A stretch of 33,559 nt of DNA, from NCBI GenBank assembly GCA_025361285.1, contig JANYAP010000028.1, positions 1-33,559 on the forward strand, written 5' to 3'. The DNA comes from Bacteroidales bacterium (GTDB lineage Bacteria; Bacteroidota; Bacteroidia; Bacteroidales; JAAUTT01). The notes beneath the pieces were generated by a model. It did not search any database and had not been told where the DNA came from. It was given only the letters and a program-made list of their open reading frames with translations. Below are positions 2,252 through 33,559 of the stretch, piece after piece. Each line of letters opens with the position of its first letter. Within the stretch, counting starts at the first letter, position 1. The position numbers were made by a program, and so were the translations under genes.

Positions 2252-5200
2252 TTATTGTTTCCTTTTTACTAACTCCACTATTTTGCTGTATAATAAATTT
2301 TCGTTAATGGGTTTGGAAATATAATCGTTCATTCCAAATTTTTGGCATTTGGCTACATCGGCTGTGGTTACATCGGCTGTTAATGCGACTATTGGAATTT
2401 GAGATTTCATTGTTTTTCGTATATATTCTGTTGCCTCAAAACCATTCATTTCGGGCATCTGCAAATCCATAAGAATAATATCGTAGGTATTGGTTTGCAA
2501 TTTTTCTATTGCTAATTTTCCATTGCCTACTACTTCAGGTTCAAATCCAAAATCGCTTAAAATAATATTAATTAAAAATTGGTTTAATGGAACATCTTCG
2601 GCTACCAATATTCGAAGGCTTTTAATTTCCGAATCGAGCTTTATTATTTCATTTTCTTCTTCCGATTTTATATCTGTTTTCCCGAAAGGCAATATAAAAC
2701 TAAATGTTGATCCTTCTCCTATCTTACTGCTTACGCTAATGCTTCCTCCTTGGTTTTCAATTAATTGTTTAACAATTGCAAGCCCTAACCCTGTTCCTCC
2801 ATAAGTGTTAGCTATGCTTAGTTCGGCTTGTTCAAAAAGATTAAAAATCGAATCTATTTTGTCATCGTCAATGCCAATTCCTGAATCGGTTATGGCAAAC
2901 TCAATGGCAACATTGTGTTCGGTTTCGGTTAATAATTTGCTGCTTATTTTAATTTTTCCATGGTGTGTAAATTTTACGGCATTGTTTACAAGGTTTAAAA
3001 TAATCTGATTTAATCTTAGCGAATCGCCCAAAAGTATAACTGGTATTTTGCTGTCGTATTCATTTACGAGTTCTAAATTTTTTTCTTTTATTTTCAGGTC
3101 GAAGGAATGTAGTATTGTTGTAATTGATTCGCGTATTTCAAAAGGTTGGTTTTCAAATGTCATTTTACCTGCATCTACTTTTGCCAAATCGAGTATATCG
3201 TTTATAAGCAGGTTTAAAGTTTTGCCACTTGTTTTTATAGCTTGTAAAAATTCGGTTTGTTCTGGGCTTAATTTAGTTTTCAGCAACACTTTTGCAAATC
3301 CTAAAATGGAGTTTAATGGGGTGCGAATTTCGTGGCTCATGTTCGATAAAAACTGTTGTTTAAACTTAACAGCATTTTCGGCTGATAGCTTTGCTTCTAT
3401 CAATTCTTTTTCATACAGTTTGCGTTCGGTAATATCGCTGAACAAAACGGCAAACTTTTCCTTTTCAATAGGATAAGCTTTGTTTGCAAACCAGCGGTTA
3501 GTGTCTTCAAAGTAATTCTCATATTCTACAGGACGCTGATTATCCACCACGTCGGCATAGATATCTATCCATTTATTGAGTGAAGGAAAAACCTGCAGGA
3601 GGGGTTTACCAATCACCATTTCTTTGTTTACTCCGGTTTGTTTTTCGTAGGTGGGATTTACCTCCAGAATACAAATGTCAATTCCTTTACCTACTTTGTT
3701 GCGAATTAGCTCGCATAGGGTGAGACCTTGATCAATGGAAGTGAAAAGGATACGGAACTTTTCTTCTGATATGTGCAGGGCTTCTTCTGCGTTCGCTTTT
3801 TCCAAAGCGGCCCAAGTGCGTTCGGCTGTTTCCTGAACGATAGTAAGATCAAGCTTTGTCCAATTGCGAACTACAGACTGGTTTACACCGAGCAGGCATA
3901 TAAGTTTGTTGTCTTTAACAAGTGGCACGTTGATGTAAGCATGTATTTGCATCTCAAGATTTTTGTCGCGCTCTTCTTGAGTAACCGAGGTATCATTTGC
4001 AACATTTGCTGTTAAAATTACTTCTCCTCGTTTGAGCATAGCAACTTTAGCTTTTACAAATTCTTCAAGCCGATATGTTCCATCGATAGGATCAAGATCG
4101 GAGCTAAAACTGTTGTCGATAACACAACGTTTTCCATCCTTAAGAACCTCGGCAAAATAGCACCTGCTTACGTTTAAGTGTTCGCCAAGCACCTGCATTG
4201 CTTTGATTTTGATTTGTTGAGGAGCACTAAGCAACCTTAAAGCATCGCTCAGCTTTAGTAGGAATGCATGTTGCACTTCGCTTTCAGCAATTCTTTTTCG
4301 TGCAATAGTTTGTTCGGTAATATCGGAAATGGCGAGCAGAATTAATTCCTCGTGATTCATTTTCTGAATTATGCGCCGTGCATTAAGCAGCATTGTTTTT
4401 TCACCAATGAGCGGGAAGGTGTGCGTAATTTCGAAGTCGTGGAAGTGCGTATTTTTTGGAAGTAAGTCTTCGAGAAGCTCTCTGAGAAGTGGAATATTCC
4501 ATTGCTTGTTTCCTAAATCGTACAATAGCTCGCCTTCTGTATCTTCTTCTTTAACTTTAAATATTTTATAGAATGTTTTGTTGGCCGATTTTACACGAAG
4601 ACTTTTATCTAACACAAGCATGGGTTCGTGTATGGTGGCTAATACAGCTTCGGAATAGCCATAGGCTTCGTTAAGTAAGTCGTTGCGGGTTTGCAGTTCC
4701 TGATTGGTGGTGGTGAGTTCCTCGTTGGCCGATTCTATTTCTTCTTTCGAAGTTTCCATCTCTTCGTTCAAGGTTTGCAATTCTTCGTTGCTCGACACTA
4801 CTTCTTCGTTGGCACTCTGTAATTCTTCGGTAAATGCTTCCTGCTCCTGTGCAATTGTAAGCGCATCGGCTTGTGCTGCCGCTAGTTCCTGCTCTAATTT
4901 TTTTATCCTTCGATCCTTTGCAAGCGAAGCCCCCCCTGTCCCCTGAAGGGAGGCTGGGCGAAAAACTTCGACCTGTTCCAGTTCGGTAAAAAGAATTAAA
5001 AGCAAGGGTTCCGCAGATTCAATTTTAAGAGGAACAATTTCTAAACTTAGTATTTTTACTGCTGAATTAATTTTAAATTCAATTCCGCTTTTGCGAACAC
5101 AGTGTTTTGTTTTTATAACTTTTGAAATTGTATTTCGCAATTCGAAAGCAATTTCGGGACGTGCCATTTTTAAAATATTAAAAGTGGCTTTGCCTTTGGG

Positions 5201-6046
5201 ATGAGTAAGAAATAGATCGGTTGTGCCCCGAAACTGCACTATTTCCATTTGGTGATTTATAACAACGCTGGCAGGCATAAATTCCGAAACAAGCACGGCA
5301 TCGATGGCGTTGTCGAGATTGTTGTGATTAACCGAAATGGTTTGGTTGGGTTTGGCTTTATTGGTTACCGTAGTGTTTTTTTCGGTAAGCATTTGCTGTA
5401 CATACCTAGGTAATAGAGCAGGCAAGGTTCGGCTGCCCGAATTTATTTTGCGTAAAAATATTTTGTACTTCTTATTAAAACCTGTAAAAAGATTGGCCGA
5501 CTGAGTGATGTTTTCCGATTTGCCAAGCATTAAAAATCCATCGTCGTTTAAGGCATAATGAAAGGTATTGACTGCTTTTTTTTGTGCTGGGTTATCAAAA
5601 TAAATAAACAGGTTGCAGCAACTAATAAAATCGAGGCGCGAAAAGGGAGGGTCGTGTAAAATGTTATGAGGTGCAAATACGCACAAATCGCGTACGGCTT
5701 TGTTTACACGAAATCCACCATCGGCTTTAGTAAAGAAGCGCTGTATGCGTTTTGGCGAAACGGTTTCCAAATCGTGCTTGGAATAAATACCAATACGAGC
5801 CTTGTTTATTGCCTGTTGGCTTAAGTCGGTAGCAAAAATTTGAACGCGTGTGGTTGTTGCTTTGTCTTCCTGTATTTCGAGCAACATCATTGCCATGGAA
5901 TAAGCTTCTTCGCCTGTAGCACAGGCAGGAACCCATATACGTAGCGTCTCGCCAGTTTTTTTTCGTTTAAGTAGTTTAGGAAAAAGATTTTCTTTTAAAT
6001 ATGTGTGCGTGTCGGTATCACGAAAAAAACTGGTTACATTAATCAA
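2252..6046 (-). CDS. CheR-PAS-GAF-PAS hybrid histidine kinase with REC (3' part of a frameshifted gene)
   Basis: This is the downstream 1264 residues of a CheB-CheR-kinase fusion. The nominal start is a TTG inside the conserved QDLLINVTSFFRD segment of CheR, so it is not a natural N-terminus. Order: CheR methyltransferase (about 1-200, SAM-binding VPACATGEEAYSMAM); linker; a long coiled coil of repeated ANEELQ/SNEELQ heptads (about 380-460); PAS; GAF (about 590-760); PAS; HisKA with FLSNMSHEIRTPLNS (His near 903); HATPase with DSGIGI and GGTGLGL; REC with MDLQMPEMNG (Asp near 1192). There is no membrane segment, so it should be cytoplasmic. In this fusion family the CheB and CheR parts probably modify or sense rather than serve canonical chemotaxis. 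No other chemotaxis gene is in the window. In the same frame the reading extends upstream to about 6107, where it joins the CheB-containing frame. Residues near 361-375 come from an inserted repeat. Confidence 0.88.
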   Translation of the reverse strand: MINVTSFFRDTDTHTYLKENLFPKLLKRKKTGETLRIWVPACATGEEAYSMAMMLLEIQEDKATTTRVQIFATDLSQQAINKARIGIYSKHDLETVSPKRIQRFFTKADGGFRVNKAVRDLCVFAPHNILHDPPFSRLDFISCCNLFIYFDNPAQKKAVNTFHYALNDDGFLMLGKSENITQSANLFTGFNKKYKIFLRKINSGSRTLPALLPRYVQQMLTEKNTTVTNKAKPNQTISVNHNNLDNAIDAVLVSEFMPASVVINHQMEIVQFRGTTDLFLTHPKGKATFNILKMARPEIAFELRNTISKVIKTKHCVRKSGIEFKINSAVKILSLEIVPLKIESAEPLLLILFTELEQVEVFRPASLQGTGGASLAKDRRIKKLEQELAAAQADALTIAQEQEAFTEELQSANEEVVSSNEELQTLNEEMETSKEEIESANEELTTTNQELQTRNDLLNEAYGYSEAVLATIHEPMLVLDKSLRVKSANKTFYKIFKVKEEDTEGELLYDLGNKQWNIPLLRELLEDLLPKNTHFHDFEITHTFPLIGEKTMLLNARRIIQKMNHEELILLAISDITEQTIARKRIAESEVQHAFLLKLSDALRLLSAPQQIKIKAMQVLGEHLNVSRCYFAEVLKDGKRCVIDNSFSSDLDPIDGTYRLEEFVKAKVAMLKRGEVILTANVANDTSVTQEERDKNLEMQIHAYINVPLVKDNKLICLLGVNQSVVRNWTKLDLTIVQETAERTWAALEKANAEEALHISEEKFRILFTSIDQGLTLCELIRNKVGKGIDICILEVNPTYEKQTGVNKEMVIGKPLLQVFPSLNKWIDIYADVVDNQRPVEYENYFEDTNRWFANKAYPIEKEKFAVLFSDITERKLYEKELIEAKLSAENAVKFKQQFLSNMSHEIRTPLNSILGFAKVLLKTKLSPEQTEFLQAIKTSGKTLNLLINDILDLAKVDAGKMTFENQPFEIRESITTILHSFDLKIKEKNLELVNEYDSKIPVILLGDSLRLNQIILNLVNNAVKFTHHGKIKISSKLLTETEHNVAIEFAITDSGIGIDDDKIDSIFNLFEQAELSIANTYGGTGLGLAIVKQLIENQGGSISVSSKIGEGSTFSFILPFGKTDIKSEEENEIIKLDSEIKSLRILVAEDVPLNQFLINIILSDFGFEPEVVGNGKLAIEKLQTNTYDIILMDLQMPEMNGFEATEYIRKTMKSQIPIVALTADVTTADVAKCQKFGMNDYISKPINENLLYSKIVELVKRKQ
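4926..4958. repeat. CCCCCCTGTCCCCTGAAGGG repeat inside a kinase gene
   Basis: A GC-rich stretch with a C7 run and a partly palindromic CCCTGAAGGG core stands out in this AT-rich gene. On the minus strand it is read in frame as RPASLQGTGGASLAK, between LFTELEQVEVF and the RRIKKLEQEL coiled coil. The sequence looks like the dispersed C-rich intergenic repeat common in Bacteroidota. Here it sits in an interdomain linker and keeps the reading frame. Confidence 0.6.
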
Positions 6047-29708: not shown

Positions 29709-31994
29709 ATGAACAAAATTGTAAGCACCGTATTGCTTTCCTTATCGATAGGCACTGTATTAGCCCAAATACCAGTTGGTGCGTGGCGCGATCATCTGCC
29801 TTATTCTCAATGCTATAAGGTTATTAAAACCGACAATAAAATTATTACAGCTACCGCGAACAACCTGTTTGCGTATAATACTGCCGATAATAGTATCGAA
29901 AAACTATCCACAATAAGTGGTCTATCCGACCTAGGCATTGCCACAATGGAGTATAATATCGAAAAAAAACTATACCTAATAGCTTATACCAACGGCAATA
30001 TCGATATTGTTAAAGGCAATGTAATAAATAATATAGCCGATGTTAAAAATAAAACAATGCTTGGTTCTAAACGAACAAATCATATTTATTTCCATGGTAA
30101 TTATGCATACATTTCATTTTTCTTTGGCATAGTGGTGGTTGATTTGGAGCGTTTGGAAATTAAAGATACATATACGGTAGGCGAAGCAAATGAGCCATAC
30201 GAGGTGTTTTCGGTTGTTGTCGATAACACTGATATATACGCTGGTACCGCGAAAGGTATTTTTAAAGCCGATGTAAACGACCCATTTCTAGTTGATTATA
30301 ATCGTTGGCGCCGAATAGATAATATTCCTAATAGCACCGGCAAGTTCGATAAATTAGCAATATTTGACGGGAAAGTTATTGCAAACAATTATAGAGAAGC
30401 ATACAATACCGACGCTTTATATTACTTGGAGGGAAATAGCTGGAACTCGTTTCTGCCAAATGCTAAATTGCATAAAAACGAACTTCGCGTAAGTGGAAAT
30501 ATGCTCCTAGTAAGCTGTCAAGGTGCTGTTTATACAGTAAATAAGAATTTTGAATCCAGCATTATCGATACTTATGGTTTCGATTCGGCCTACCCACAAA
30601 GCTCATTAATCGACGAAGTTGGAAATTTATGGATTGCCGACCAGCGTTCGGGTTTGGTTAGTCGCCGAGCCAATTCTTCCGAATTTTCAAGCACTTTTCC
30701 TAATGGACCTAATACTAATGGATTAATAAATATGCTTTGGTCTAATGGTTCACTCTACGTTACAGCTGGCGGATTAGATGCTTCTTGGAACAACATTTCA
30801 AGAGCAGCCGAATTTTATAAATTTTCGGACGAAACTTGGACGAGTGTTTCAAATACAAGCACTATCGATTATATATCGGTGGTTGCCGATCCAGTAGATC
30901 CAGCAAAAGTATATATTGGATCTTGGAACAATGGTGTTTTCGTTTATGATGGCAACAAGTTGGTTGAAAAGTATTATTACGATAACAGTCCATTGCAGAG
31001 TAGCATACCTGGAACTCCTTTTGTGCGTATTGGAGGTATGATTTTCGACGATGCTAAAAACCTTTGGATAATAAATAGTGGCGTTAAATACCAATTAATT
31101 AAAAAAAAACCGAATGGCGAATGGGAGGCGTTTGAATTAGCGCTGGGAGATAATACAAACGACCACACAATAGGTGGTATTCATCAGGATCGCAATGGAA
31201 TGTTTTGGATAGTTGTACCACGAGTTACAGGCAGCGGAATATCTGTATTTAAGTCGAAAAACGAAAAACGATTCTTCAACCCTAAGAGCTTGTTGGGCGA
31301 TGTAATTCCTCATATTTATTGTATTACAAGCGATAACGATGGTGTGGTTTGGGTAGGAACCGACCGTGGTGTGGTTACGTATTCTAACCCAGAAAGCGTG
31401 CTTGATGGAAATATCGATGGCGACCAACCCAAAATACCTCGAAACGATGGTACTGATATCATTGACCCTCTTTTAGGTACAGAAACTGTTAATTGCATGG
31501 CAGTTGATGGAGCTAACCGCAAATGGTTCGGCACCGAAAAAGGTGGCGCGTATTTGTTTTCGCCCGATGGAACTAAAGAAATACACCATTTTACCACAGT
31601 AAATAGCCCCTTGTTTTCCAATAGTATTAAAAGCCTTGCTATTGATGAAAAGAGCGGCGAAGTGTTTTTTGGGACTGACCAGGGAATTATTTCATATCGG
31701 TCTAATGCCACTGTGGCTACCGACGATTTTACCAATGTGTACGTGTTTCCCAACCCTGTTCGAGAAGACTATCATGGCGACATTATTATTACCGGCTTGA
31801 TTGCCGATGCTTCAGTTAAAATAACCGACGTTTCGGGAAATCTGGTTTACGAAACTAAATCGCTTGGCGGACAAGCTGTTTGGGATGGAAATACAGGCGG
31901 GGGAAAACGAGTTGCAACTGGCGTATATTTGATTTTCTGCACTAATAGCGATGGTACTAGAACATTTGTTACCAAGATGTTGGTTGTGCATTGA
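29709..31994 (+). CDS. porZ: PorZ-like type IX secretion protein
   Basis: This 761-residue secreted protein has a signal peptide (1-19, cleavage near VLA-Q). Two beta-propellers follow, built of Reg_prop-like repeats such as GNLWIADQRSGLVS, GVVWVGTDRGVVTYS and NRKWFGTEKGGAYLF. The C-terminal domain (about 675-761) is of the type IX secretion kind: VYVFPNPVREDYHGDIIITG, SVKITDVSGNLVYE, ATGVYLIFC and KMLVVH. The N-terminus (IPVGAWRDHLPYSQCYKV) and the architecture match PorZ. PorZ is the surface component of the T9SS attachment complex that delivers anionic LPS for anchoring cargo. Related propeller proteins exist, but the start motif and length favour PorZ. It probably shares a transcript with rdgB. 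Confidence 0.85.
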   Translation: MNKIVSTVLLSLSIGTVLAQIPVGAWRDHLPYSQCYKVIKTDNKIITATANNLFAYNTADNSIEKLSTISGLSDLGIATMEYNIEKKLYLIAYTNGNIDIVKGNVINNIADVKNKTMLGSKRTNHIYFHGNYAYISFFFGIVVVDLERLEIKDTYTVGEANEPYEVFSVVVDNTDIYAGTAKGIFKADVNDPFLVDYNRWRRIDNIPNSTGKFDKLAIFDGKVIANNYREAYNTDALYYLEGNSWNSFLPNAKLHKNELRVSGNMLLVSCQGAVYTVNKNFESSIIDTYGFDSAYPQSSLIDEVGNLWIADQRSGLVSRRANSSEFSSTFPNGPNTNGLINMLWSNGSLYVTAGGLDASWNNISRAAEFYKFSDETWTSVSNTSTIDYISVVADPVDPAKVYIGSWNNGVFVYDGNKLVEKYYYDNSPLQSSIPGTPFVRIGGMIFDDAKNLWIINSGVKYQLIKKKPNGEWEAFELALGDNTNDHTIGGIHQDRNGMFWIVVPRVTGSGISVFKSKNEKRFFNPKSLLGDVIPHIYCITSDNDGVVWVGTDRGVVTYSNPESVLDGNIDGDQPKIPRNDGTDIIDPLLGTETVNCMAVDGANRKWFGTEKGGAYLFSPDGTKEIHHFTTVNSPLFSNSIKSLAIDEKSGEVFFGTDQGIISYRSNATVATDDFTNVYVFPNPVREDYHGDIIITGLIADASVKITDVSGNLVYETKSLGGQAVWDGNTGGGKRVATGVYLIFCTNSDGTRTFVTKMLVVH

Positions 31995-32036
31995 AAAGAT
32001 TACAGATGTGCAATTACAAATTACAGATGGGAGAAT

Positions 32037-32116
32037 GTGAAGATGTGAAGATGTGAAGATGTGAAGATGTGAAGATGTGAGAATGTGAGAATGTGAGAAT
32101 GTGAGAATGTGAGAAT
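32037..32116 (+). repeat. Octamer tandem array (GTGAAGAT)5(GTGAGAAT)5
   Basis: Ten contiguous 8-bp units, five GTGAAGAT then five GTGAGAAT, with a degraded unit before (32029) and after. The array begins about 40 nt after the porZ stop and is led in by TTACAGATGTGCAATTACAA. The unit and the lead-in (ACAGATG, AATTACAAATTAC) match the array behind aguB, so both belong to one repeat family. Confidence 0.85.
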
Positions 32117-32207
32117 GTGAAAGTGAGAAGATGAAATGATCTGTAGATTAATAGTAGTGTGCTATTAACAATAGTTCCGGCAAAAACCTATTTTTATGTA
32201 TTTCGTA

Positions 32208-32238
32208 TTTCAACTTGTTAATAATTAACAAGTTGAAA
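32208..32238. repeat. 31-nt perfect palindrome
   Basis: TTTCAACTTGTTAAT and its exact reverse complement flank a single central A. No clear T run follows on either strand, so it is not a classic terminator, although it could still end the porZ transcript or serve as a protein-binding site. It lies 43 nt beyond the intron 3' end in the exon direction. Confidence 0.6.
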
Positions 32239-32314
32239 AAAGCTGACCGAAGTATTGTTTTTGCAATAAGTACATATGAAATCGAGTAGGTAGGGGGATT
32301 ACTCCCCCGCCCTC

Positions 32315-33069
32315 TCACACCACCGTGCATGCTTTCGCACACGGCGGTTTCCTTAAATTGTTTAACCGTTCGTAGTTTAATGTTAGGTTATACAAACCTT
32401 GTGCTTCAAACCACTCATTACCCATAGCCAGATTAGCTTGTGGGCAATTTGATTTACGCCAAAATCCTTTTCCCGATAAAGCTAATATCCAACTTTGCCA
32501 TTTCTTTACGCCCATGTTTTCTAAAAAACGTTGTAGCGTAATAACTCGTTTGCATTGCTTGAGCCGATAACAACGTAGTTTACGCCGTATCCACCCATCA
32601 AGGTCGTGCAAAAGTTTGCGGCATTGTGCATATTGATAGTAATTGAGCCACCCTCGTAATACAGGCGTTAATTCGGCAATTATTTGCGCAAAACTCCTGC
32701 CCCTATTCCGTTTGGTTATGGTTCTTACTTTTTCTTGAATTTGTCAAGGCTCTTTTGCGCTATTGTTAGCATACCTCCGTTGAGTACGGTGTATCCTAAA
32801 AATTTGGTTTGGCGACTAAGGCAAACTTTACTCTTTTCTTTATTTACTATGAGTTTTAGCTTACCTTCGATAAAGCCCATTACCGATTGCATTACCCTCT
32901 CTCCTGCACTTTGGCTTCGTACGAAGATATTGCAATCGTACGCATATCGAACAAATTAGTGTCCCCTCCGTTCCAGTTCCGTATCCAATTCGTCTAAAAC
33001 TATATTAGACAAATTTAGAACTAACTGTTCCTTAAATTTAAAGATTTGAACCTTCGTTTTGGTTTGCAT
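32315..33069 (-). pseudogene. Group II intron reverse transcriptase/maturase remnant
   Basis: From an ATG at 33069 the frame reaches LSNIVLDELDTELERRGH and meets a stop at 32956-32958. It resumes as FVRYAYDCNIFVRSQSAGER, then KLKLIVNKEKSKV and KFLGYTVLNGG, and stops again at 32725. A frameshift in the A run at 32728-32733 leads into VRTITKRNRGRSFAQ, LRGWLNYYQYA and the maturase domain LDGWIRRKLRCYRLKQ (32315-32611). All of the protein before the LSNIVLDEL block is missing, and the catalytic YADD is YAYD. The final residues are encoded by intron domain V. It cannot make an active enzyme. Confidence 0.9.
32319..32348 (-). ncRNA. Group II intron domain V
   Basis: A 30-nt hairpin on the minus strand: 9-bp lower stem starting ACCGCCGTG, a 2-nt bulge on the 3' side, a TGC/GCA upper stem and a GAAA loop. 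The CGC triad at its third to fifth bases is the group IIC variant of AGC. The upper stem is about 2 bp shorter than the usual 34-nt domain. Confidence 0.75.
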
Positions 33070-33458
33070 GACCTTAACTAATATGTCCGCTGACTTCGGC
33101 GTGAGCTCAGTCGAACGCTGACTTCTTAACTCCGTCGCAGATATTATCGCTAATATCCTAGCCCTCCAAGGTACGGACCAAGACCTCTCGGGATAAGGTT
33201 CTTCCCTTTCATTAGGTTCTGCCTGATTTACTGTAAGCGATTACGGTTGATTTTTGGGCTTGCGCAATCCATTGCTCGCTCTCCCTCCGCAGTTCAGCCT
33301 TGTATCAGGTTTCTGTACGTCAAAACGCCAATTTTGCTGATGGCTTCCTTCAGATTTCACCTCACGGTGAACACCCTTGCCATTCGCTAACACTTCCTAT
33401 CAACTCGGTGTGTGCAGGGACTTACACCCTGCAAGTCAAAGAACTATGCCCGGCATAC

Positions 33459-33494
33459 AAAAAAGAGCATCTCGTTTCCGAGACACTCTTTTTT
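33459..33494 (-). terminator. Intrinsic terminator, insertion target of the intron
   Basis: On the minus strand AAAAAAGAGTGTCTCG, loop GAAA, CGAGATGCTCTTTTTT: the stem has one internal 2-nt mismatch and a T6 run. Because the arms are A-rich and T-rich it could work in both directions. It lies 21 nt behind the stop of the partial gene at 33516, and the intron begins at the very next base. Confidence 0.85.
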
Positions 33495-33515: not shown

Positions 33516-33559
33516 TTAATTATATCCGAAAGTAATCGAATATGTTCCTGTGTAAACGC
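33516..33559 (-). CDS. C-terminal end of a gene, possibly an outer-membrane protein (partial)
   Basis: Only the last 13 codons are inside the window (VYTGTYSITFGYN, then TAA). The alternating hydrophobic/polar pattern with aromatics is what the last strand of an outer-membrane beta-barrel looks like, but 13 residues cannot prove it. The frame is supported mainly by the terminator placed 21 nt after its stop codon and by the intron inserted behind that terminator. Confidence 0.45.
   Translation of the reverse strand, partial: VYTGTYSITFGYN

Follow-up and report, generated by a model that had tools for sequence, protein, structure and literature searches.

Class C (IIC) introns are described, in excerpts of PMC4424553, as inserting at intrinsic terminators, a target choice that, judging by excerpts of PMC7161350, has been put to use; the former excerpts also mention a CGC in domain V of some group II introns. 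The window analysed here, a stretch of 33,559 nt that is one whole contig (G000:C83) of a Bacteroidales draft genome of 202 contigs, carries a group II intron on its minus strand, 1178 nt long and running from 33458 (5' GTATG) to 32281 (3' CGAT). As far as the excerpts of PMC4424553 and PMC7161350 describe class C introns, the locus resembles them in its insertion at a terminator, its CGC triad and, on the side of its relatives, three proteins in which Pfam finds no endonuclease domain and a reverse transcriptase of class C type in locus L046; it differs from them in that the window copy is broken in both its protein and its RNA core. Its 5' end reads GTATG, not GTGYG. We consider it highly probable (about 0.93) that a class C intron inserted behind a terminator and then decayed, the copy now being most likely inert. 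In its choice of site the intron follows what is established for class C, and this is not new. The features that delimit the element, its target and the surviving parts of the ribozyme are as follows.

33516..33557, minus strand: VYTGTYSITFGYN with a stop at 33518-33516, probably the C terminus encoded by the upstream gene, which the contig end truncates (translation).
33459..33494, minus strand: intrinsic terminator of the upstream gene, which lies to the right on the minus strand; it serves as 5' exon and intron target hairpin (folding).
32281..33458, minus strand: the whole 1178-nt relic of a class C group II intron (Rfam matches and alignment to ten full-length relatives).
33198..33371, minus strand: domain I core of the ribozyme (RF02001, group-II-D1D4-3; 113.3 bits, cut-off 32).
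32319..32348, minus strand: domain V in a short form, with a 9-bp proximal helix, a 2-nt bulge, a 3-bp distal helix and a GAAA loop (RF00029; covariation).
32281..32316, minus strand: domain VI and the 3' end, CGAT (RF00029; alignment A2).

Searching the window with Rfam placed the domain I core at 33371-33198 (E = 1e-22) and domains V/VI at 32349-32281 (RF00029; 45.3 bits, cut-off 40, E = 5.9e-6), so that both parts of the ribozyme expected of a class C group II intron are present with scores above their cut-offs, and the last base of the RF00029 match is the proposed last base of the intron (32281). A first-pass annotation of this DNA had called for such a covariance-model search, and had placed the 5' end at the base after a T6 run, the 3' end at an AT, and a CGC triad and GAAA loop in domain V. 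Each of these observations stands, on a strand that the annotation had not named: the intron begins with GTATGCCGGGCATAG, its first base, 33458, following the TTTTTT of the hairpin without a gap; it ends in CGAT at 32281; and the triad and the loop both lie in 32319-32348. The terminal AT fits the 3' AY of class C introns, and the 5' end is GTATG in the window and in nine of the ten full-length relatives introduced below, the tenth (L056) having GTGTG (vs GUGYG).

The hairpin upstream of the intron (33494-33459) has a 16-bp stem, a GAAA loop and T6 at the end of its 3' arm, with a minimum free energy of -20.6 kcal/mol and a z-score of -6.4 (200 shuffles) or -7.2 (1000 shuffles). A junction was scored as lying behind a terminator when a hairpin of -9 kcal/mol or lower ended within 7 nt of it, with five or more T among the final 10 bases and z <= -2.5. 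By this measure a terminator-like hairpin stands at 24 of 28 distinct 5' junctions, the window's included (1000 shuffles); the exceptions are L056 (z -2.44), L069 (3 T), L009 and L068. Random window positions passed in 8 of 4000 cases, with 100 shuffles each instead of 1000. The window junction thus lies behind a terminator in the manner of class C introns, which upholds the exact placement proposed in the first-pass annotation. Joining the two flanks produces a run of eight T, six of which remain 5' of the intron, and it is plausible that the terminator of the upstream gene still works and that termination has been retained. The call of that gene's C-terminal end is weak because it comprises only 13 residues.

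Relatives were sought in bacterial and archaeal genomes, the query being the longest frame still open in the window copy (32743-32318). This search returned 48 loci (L046-L093), the closest of which carry Bacteroidales-type names, with others from Saprospiraceae, Oligoflexia, Lentisphaerae and more. Ten relatives, their ends set by pattern, were delimited end to end; nine bear Bacteroidales-type names and one (L056) that of an Ignavibacteriales MAG. They measure 1906-1936 nt and all contain an open frame with YADD; the listed frame of L054 extends to the intron end and the first methionine of L055 lies inside the frame, so that the coding ends of these two are provisional. No 5' end was found for L052, which is not counted as full length. 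The flanks of the ten are unrelated, and the introns themselves align to the window copy. The nine full-length members of L046-L055, among them L049 from Seramator thermalis, share with the window intron its ends, its short domain V and an upstream hairpin with a T run; they differ from it in their length, in their open YADD frame and in being without the 25-nt insertion described below.

We assign the window intron to class C on the basis of the protein matches of L046 and other relatives, the CGC triad and the type of target. Among solved structures the L046 protein has its best match in the GsI-IIC reverse transcriptase (PDB 6ar1; 376 bits, vs 138 bits for LtrA), and the L046 and L048 proteins both score above the TIGR04416 cut-off. 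Pfam finds RVT_1 and GIIM and no endonuclease domain in the L046, L048 and L049 proteins; the window itself yields fragments of RVT_1 and GIIM only and, in contrast to the GsI-IIC enzyme, keeps just the C-terminal half of such a protein, in two frames. A CGC triad in domain V is tied to class C, and the window has one, within ACCGCC at 32348-32343. The relic of a class IIC intron named in the first-pass annotation is therefore supported by the Rfam matches, the GsI-IIC-like protein of a relative, the triad, the type of target and the lesions.

Domain V is 30 nt long (ACCGCC GTG TGC GAAA GCA TG CAC GGTGGT) and shorter than the RF00029 consensus, and the first-pass annotation had left open whether it was decayed or a variant. 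The 3' ends of the fetched loci and the window could be parsed in 51 of 60 distinct cases, a sample biased in that the loci were mostly fetched by the intron's own protein piece and that some genomes contributed several copies; 40 of these 51 ends, the window's among them, have 19 letters between ACCGC and GGTGGT, the others having 20 (three ends), 21 (four), 22 (three) or 24 (one). Nine of the ten full-length relatives have the 19-letter form, L056 having 20. Because relatives with open reverse transcriptase frames share the same short form, decay of domain V is ruled out, and what stands is a variant of the lineage. In an alignment of 15 sequences (10 distinct rows, window included), both partners have changed in 4 of the 12 domain V pairs, and pairing holds in 97.7% of all cells, vs 41-59% when the partner is slid, which argues from sequence comparison that the short domain V is a maintained structure. 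Such a hairpin could be taken for decay, yet it is widespread in a lineage whose reverse transcriptase frames are open. RF00029, applied to 16 loci, gave 8 matches in 7 of them at 40.5-47 bits (cut-off 40), the 47-bit match being to a domain V of the longer form, and gave none in L046, L049, L054, L056, L058, L060, L061, L063 or L067. The general Rfam model scores the short form near its cut-off, and such introns may consequently be under-annotated. A narrow literature search returned no paper on a short domain V in IIC introns, which is no proof of absence. We regard as improbable a bolder proposal, in which a large and mainly Bacteroidota sublineage of class C, with the relic as one member, has a 3-bp distal domain V helix under a GNRA loop, and its active members would dock the shortened hairpin into a correspondingly changed domain I receptor. 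If true, this sublineage would offer a natural experiment on the limits to shortening of the catalytic hairpin in group II introns.

The protein and the RNA core of the window copy both bear lesions, which together with the surviving coding fragments are located as follows.

33093..33117, minus strand: 25-nt insertion splitting the motif AAGTCAGCAGA..CATAGTA (alignments; R1 score).
33018..33019, minus strand: deletion junction, with the loss of about 760 nt (L048 positions 414-1173) and of L046 protein (IEP) residues 1-251 (L048 alignment; tblastn of the L046 protein).
32743..33012, minus strand: reverse transcriptase fragment, L046 IEP residues 252-341 (tblastn; RVT_1).
32318..32740, minus strand: maturase domain fragment, L046 IEP residues 343-483, in another frame and still open (GIIM; tblastn).

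Alignment to L048 shows 760 nt of the ORF to be missing, and tblastn with the L046 protein recovers the two remnants in two different frames. The reverse transcriptase fragment (RVT_1 at 32955-32743, E 4.6e-7) contains an in-frame stop at 32958-32956 and has YAYD in place of YADD, the altered codon lying at 32940-32938; the maturase fragment matches GIIM with E 2.6e-19 in Pfam and is 79% identical to the L046 protein. Deletion, stop, YAYD and frameshift leave the window copy with no intact reverse transcriptase/maturase frame. The RNA core is affected by the 25-nt insertion, which is flanked on either side by AAGTCAGCG and interrupts a motif that we take to be domain III, most positions of which are invariant across 15 aligned stretches from 14 loci; the conserved stretch behind the domain I core is presumably domains II/III. 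RF01998 covers the stretch split by the insertion and is present in all ten full-length relatives; it is absent from the Rfam list for the window at E up to 1, and was likewise not found in L057 and L060. A model built from the 15 aligned stretches around the motif (R1), run with filters off on 401 bases, matched the window at 27.8 bits (E 7.7e-8). Scores of 86.9, 91.5 and 94.2 bits were obtained for L046, L050 and L048, all three part of the training set, 83.5 bits for L006, a relic outside it, and 46.2-60.4 bits for seven more distant members, two of which (L061, L063) are in the training set; L057, another shortened copy, scored 14.2 bits, and R1 found no match in L052, L060 and L074. The absence of RF01998 and the R1 score indicate that the conserved stretch is not intact in the window. 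Four lesions break the protein, and the 25-nt insertion disrupts the RNA core; the first-pass annotation mentions neither kind of damage. That insertion contains TTCGACTGAGCTCA; TTCGACTNNGCTCA occurs five times in the genome vs none for its reversed control, and a 23-nt string from the insertion has no other occurrence in the genome at up to 3 mismatches. A link between the insertion and a small dispersed palindrome is only a guess.

In the course of events that we favour, a class C group II intron would have used the terminator hairpin of a minus-strand gene, together with its T run, as a target and reverse-spliced into the DNA immediately downstream, the intron's own reverse transcriptase copying it in. 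Decay would have followed: most of the reverse transcriptase would have been lost to a deletion, what remained would have acquired a frameshift, an in-frame stop and a substitution in the active site, and the 25-nt insertion would have broken the conserved motif of the RNA core. The outcome would be an inert copy lying outside coding sequence and doing little harm. In this account the data establish the element's anatomy, its lesions, its family and the position of its relatives behind terminators, while the insertion, the inertness and the continued termination are inferred. On these lesions the window copy is predicted to be unable to move by itself and probably unable to splice. Some residual activity is conceivable, since domain V and domain I (45.3 and 113.3 bits) score in the range of the relatives (40.5-47 and 81-145 bits, respectively) and the R1 score of 27.8 bits is still significant.

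The domain I and domain V/VI scores would also fit a different reading, in which the element is a non-autonomous intron that lost its ORF and whose splicing and movement continue in trans with the help of a related maturase. Introns lacking an ORF are known to use maturases in trans, and the genome has a related partial copy that stands behind a hairpin of its own. Against this, the 25-nt insertion breaks a mostly invariant motif, the R1 score falls far below the 86.9-94.2 bits of L046, L050 and L048, and the remnants of the coding frames, which carry a stop codon, a frameshift and an altered active site, resemble decay rather than an intron neatly built without an ORF; we judge this reading very unlikely. 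Less probable still, to the point of being nearly negligible, is that the intron is intact and its lesions arose in sequencing or assembly. The draft genome is fragmented, with the window as one of its contigs, and copies of this intron end contigs in G041; artefacts would nevertheless have to account for several separate kinds of lesion inside a single contig, among them the 760-nt deletion and the 25-nt insertion. An intron that inserted and then decayed in place remains our preferred reading, and the window copy, of little import by itself, illustrates in detail the decay of a class C intron downstream of a terminator.

An empty site was sought by comparing the joined flanks (251 nt) with 119 genomes, the window's own included, with no convincing counterpart. 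Two candidates were rejected: G000:C26 (82%, query 91-200) reflects a dispersed palindromic repeat of the 3' flank, with weak likeness 5' of the junction, and G080:C209 (86%, query 97-133) reaches into the 5' side by no more than five T. Behind the left-hand gene, G001 and G004, two genomes of the same genus, have different sequence, and the right flank extends for 101 nt, where the contig ends. We infer the act of insertion; since no empty site was found in the 119 genomes and the right flank is so short, the event and its date are unproven, and the word 'dated' in the first-pass annotation lacks support. The repeat of the 3' flank (window 32205-32259) includes a near-perfect palindrome of 31 nt (TTTCAACTTGTTAATTATTAACAAGTTGAAA) and has copies on contigs C26, C54 (two) and C110 of the same genome and weaker ones in G001. 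Nearby, at 32034-32133, behind the gene at 29709-31994, an 8-base unit (AATGTGAA) is repeated 12.5 times in tandem.

The second, partial copy in the window's own genome lies at a contig edge and is 85% identical over 342 nt; its readable part has no 25-nt insertion, and it ends before the place of the deletion. The position of this copy at a contig edge and its lack of the insertion suggest that a helper for the window intron may exist unassembled; in a search of the assembled genome with the L046 protein, the window's two fragments were the only matches. The genome further contains domain V-like matches of another type on contigs C144 and C90 (L003 and L004), at 36.9 and 36.6 bits, below the Rfam cut-off.

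Shortened copies occur elsewhere. L006 (926 nt, in G052) stands behind a terminator-like hairpin, its 5' end altered and its domain V damaged, and L057 (1277 nt, in Seramator thermalis) also stands behind a terminator-like hairpin. At L047 a second class C-like intron (3464-5362), of 1899 nt, with a longer domain V and an open stretch of 529 codons with YADD, begins 4 nt (TTTA) past the 3' end of the first, and because of this spacing the domain VI hairpin of the first intron may have served as the target hairpin of the second.
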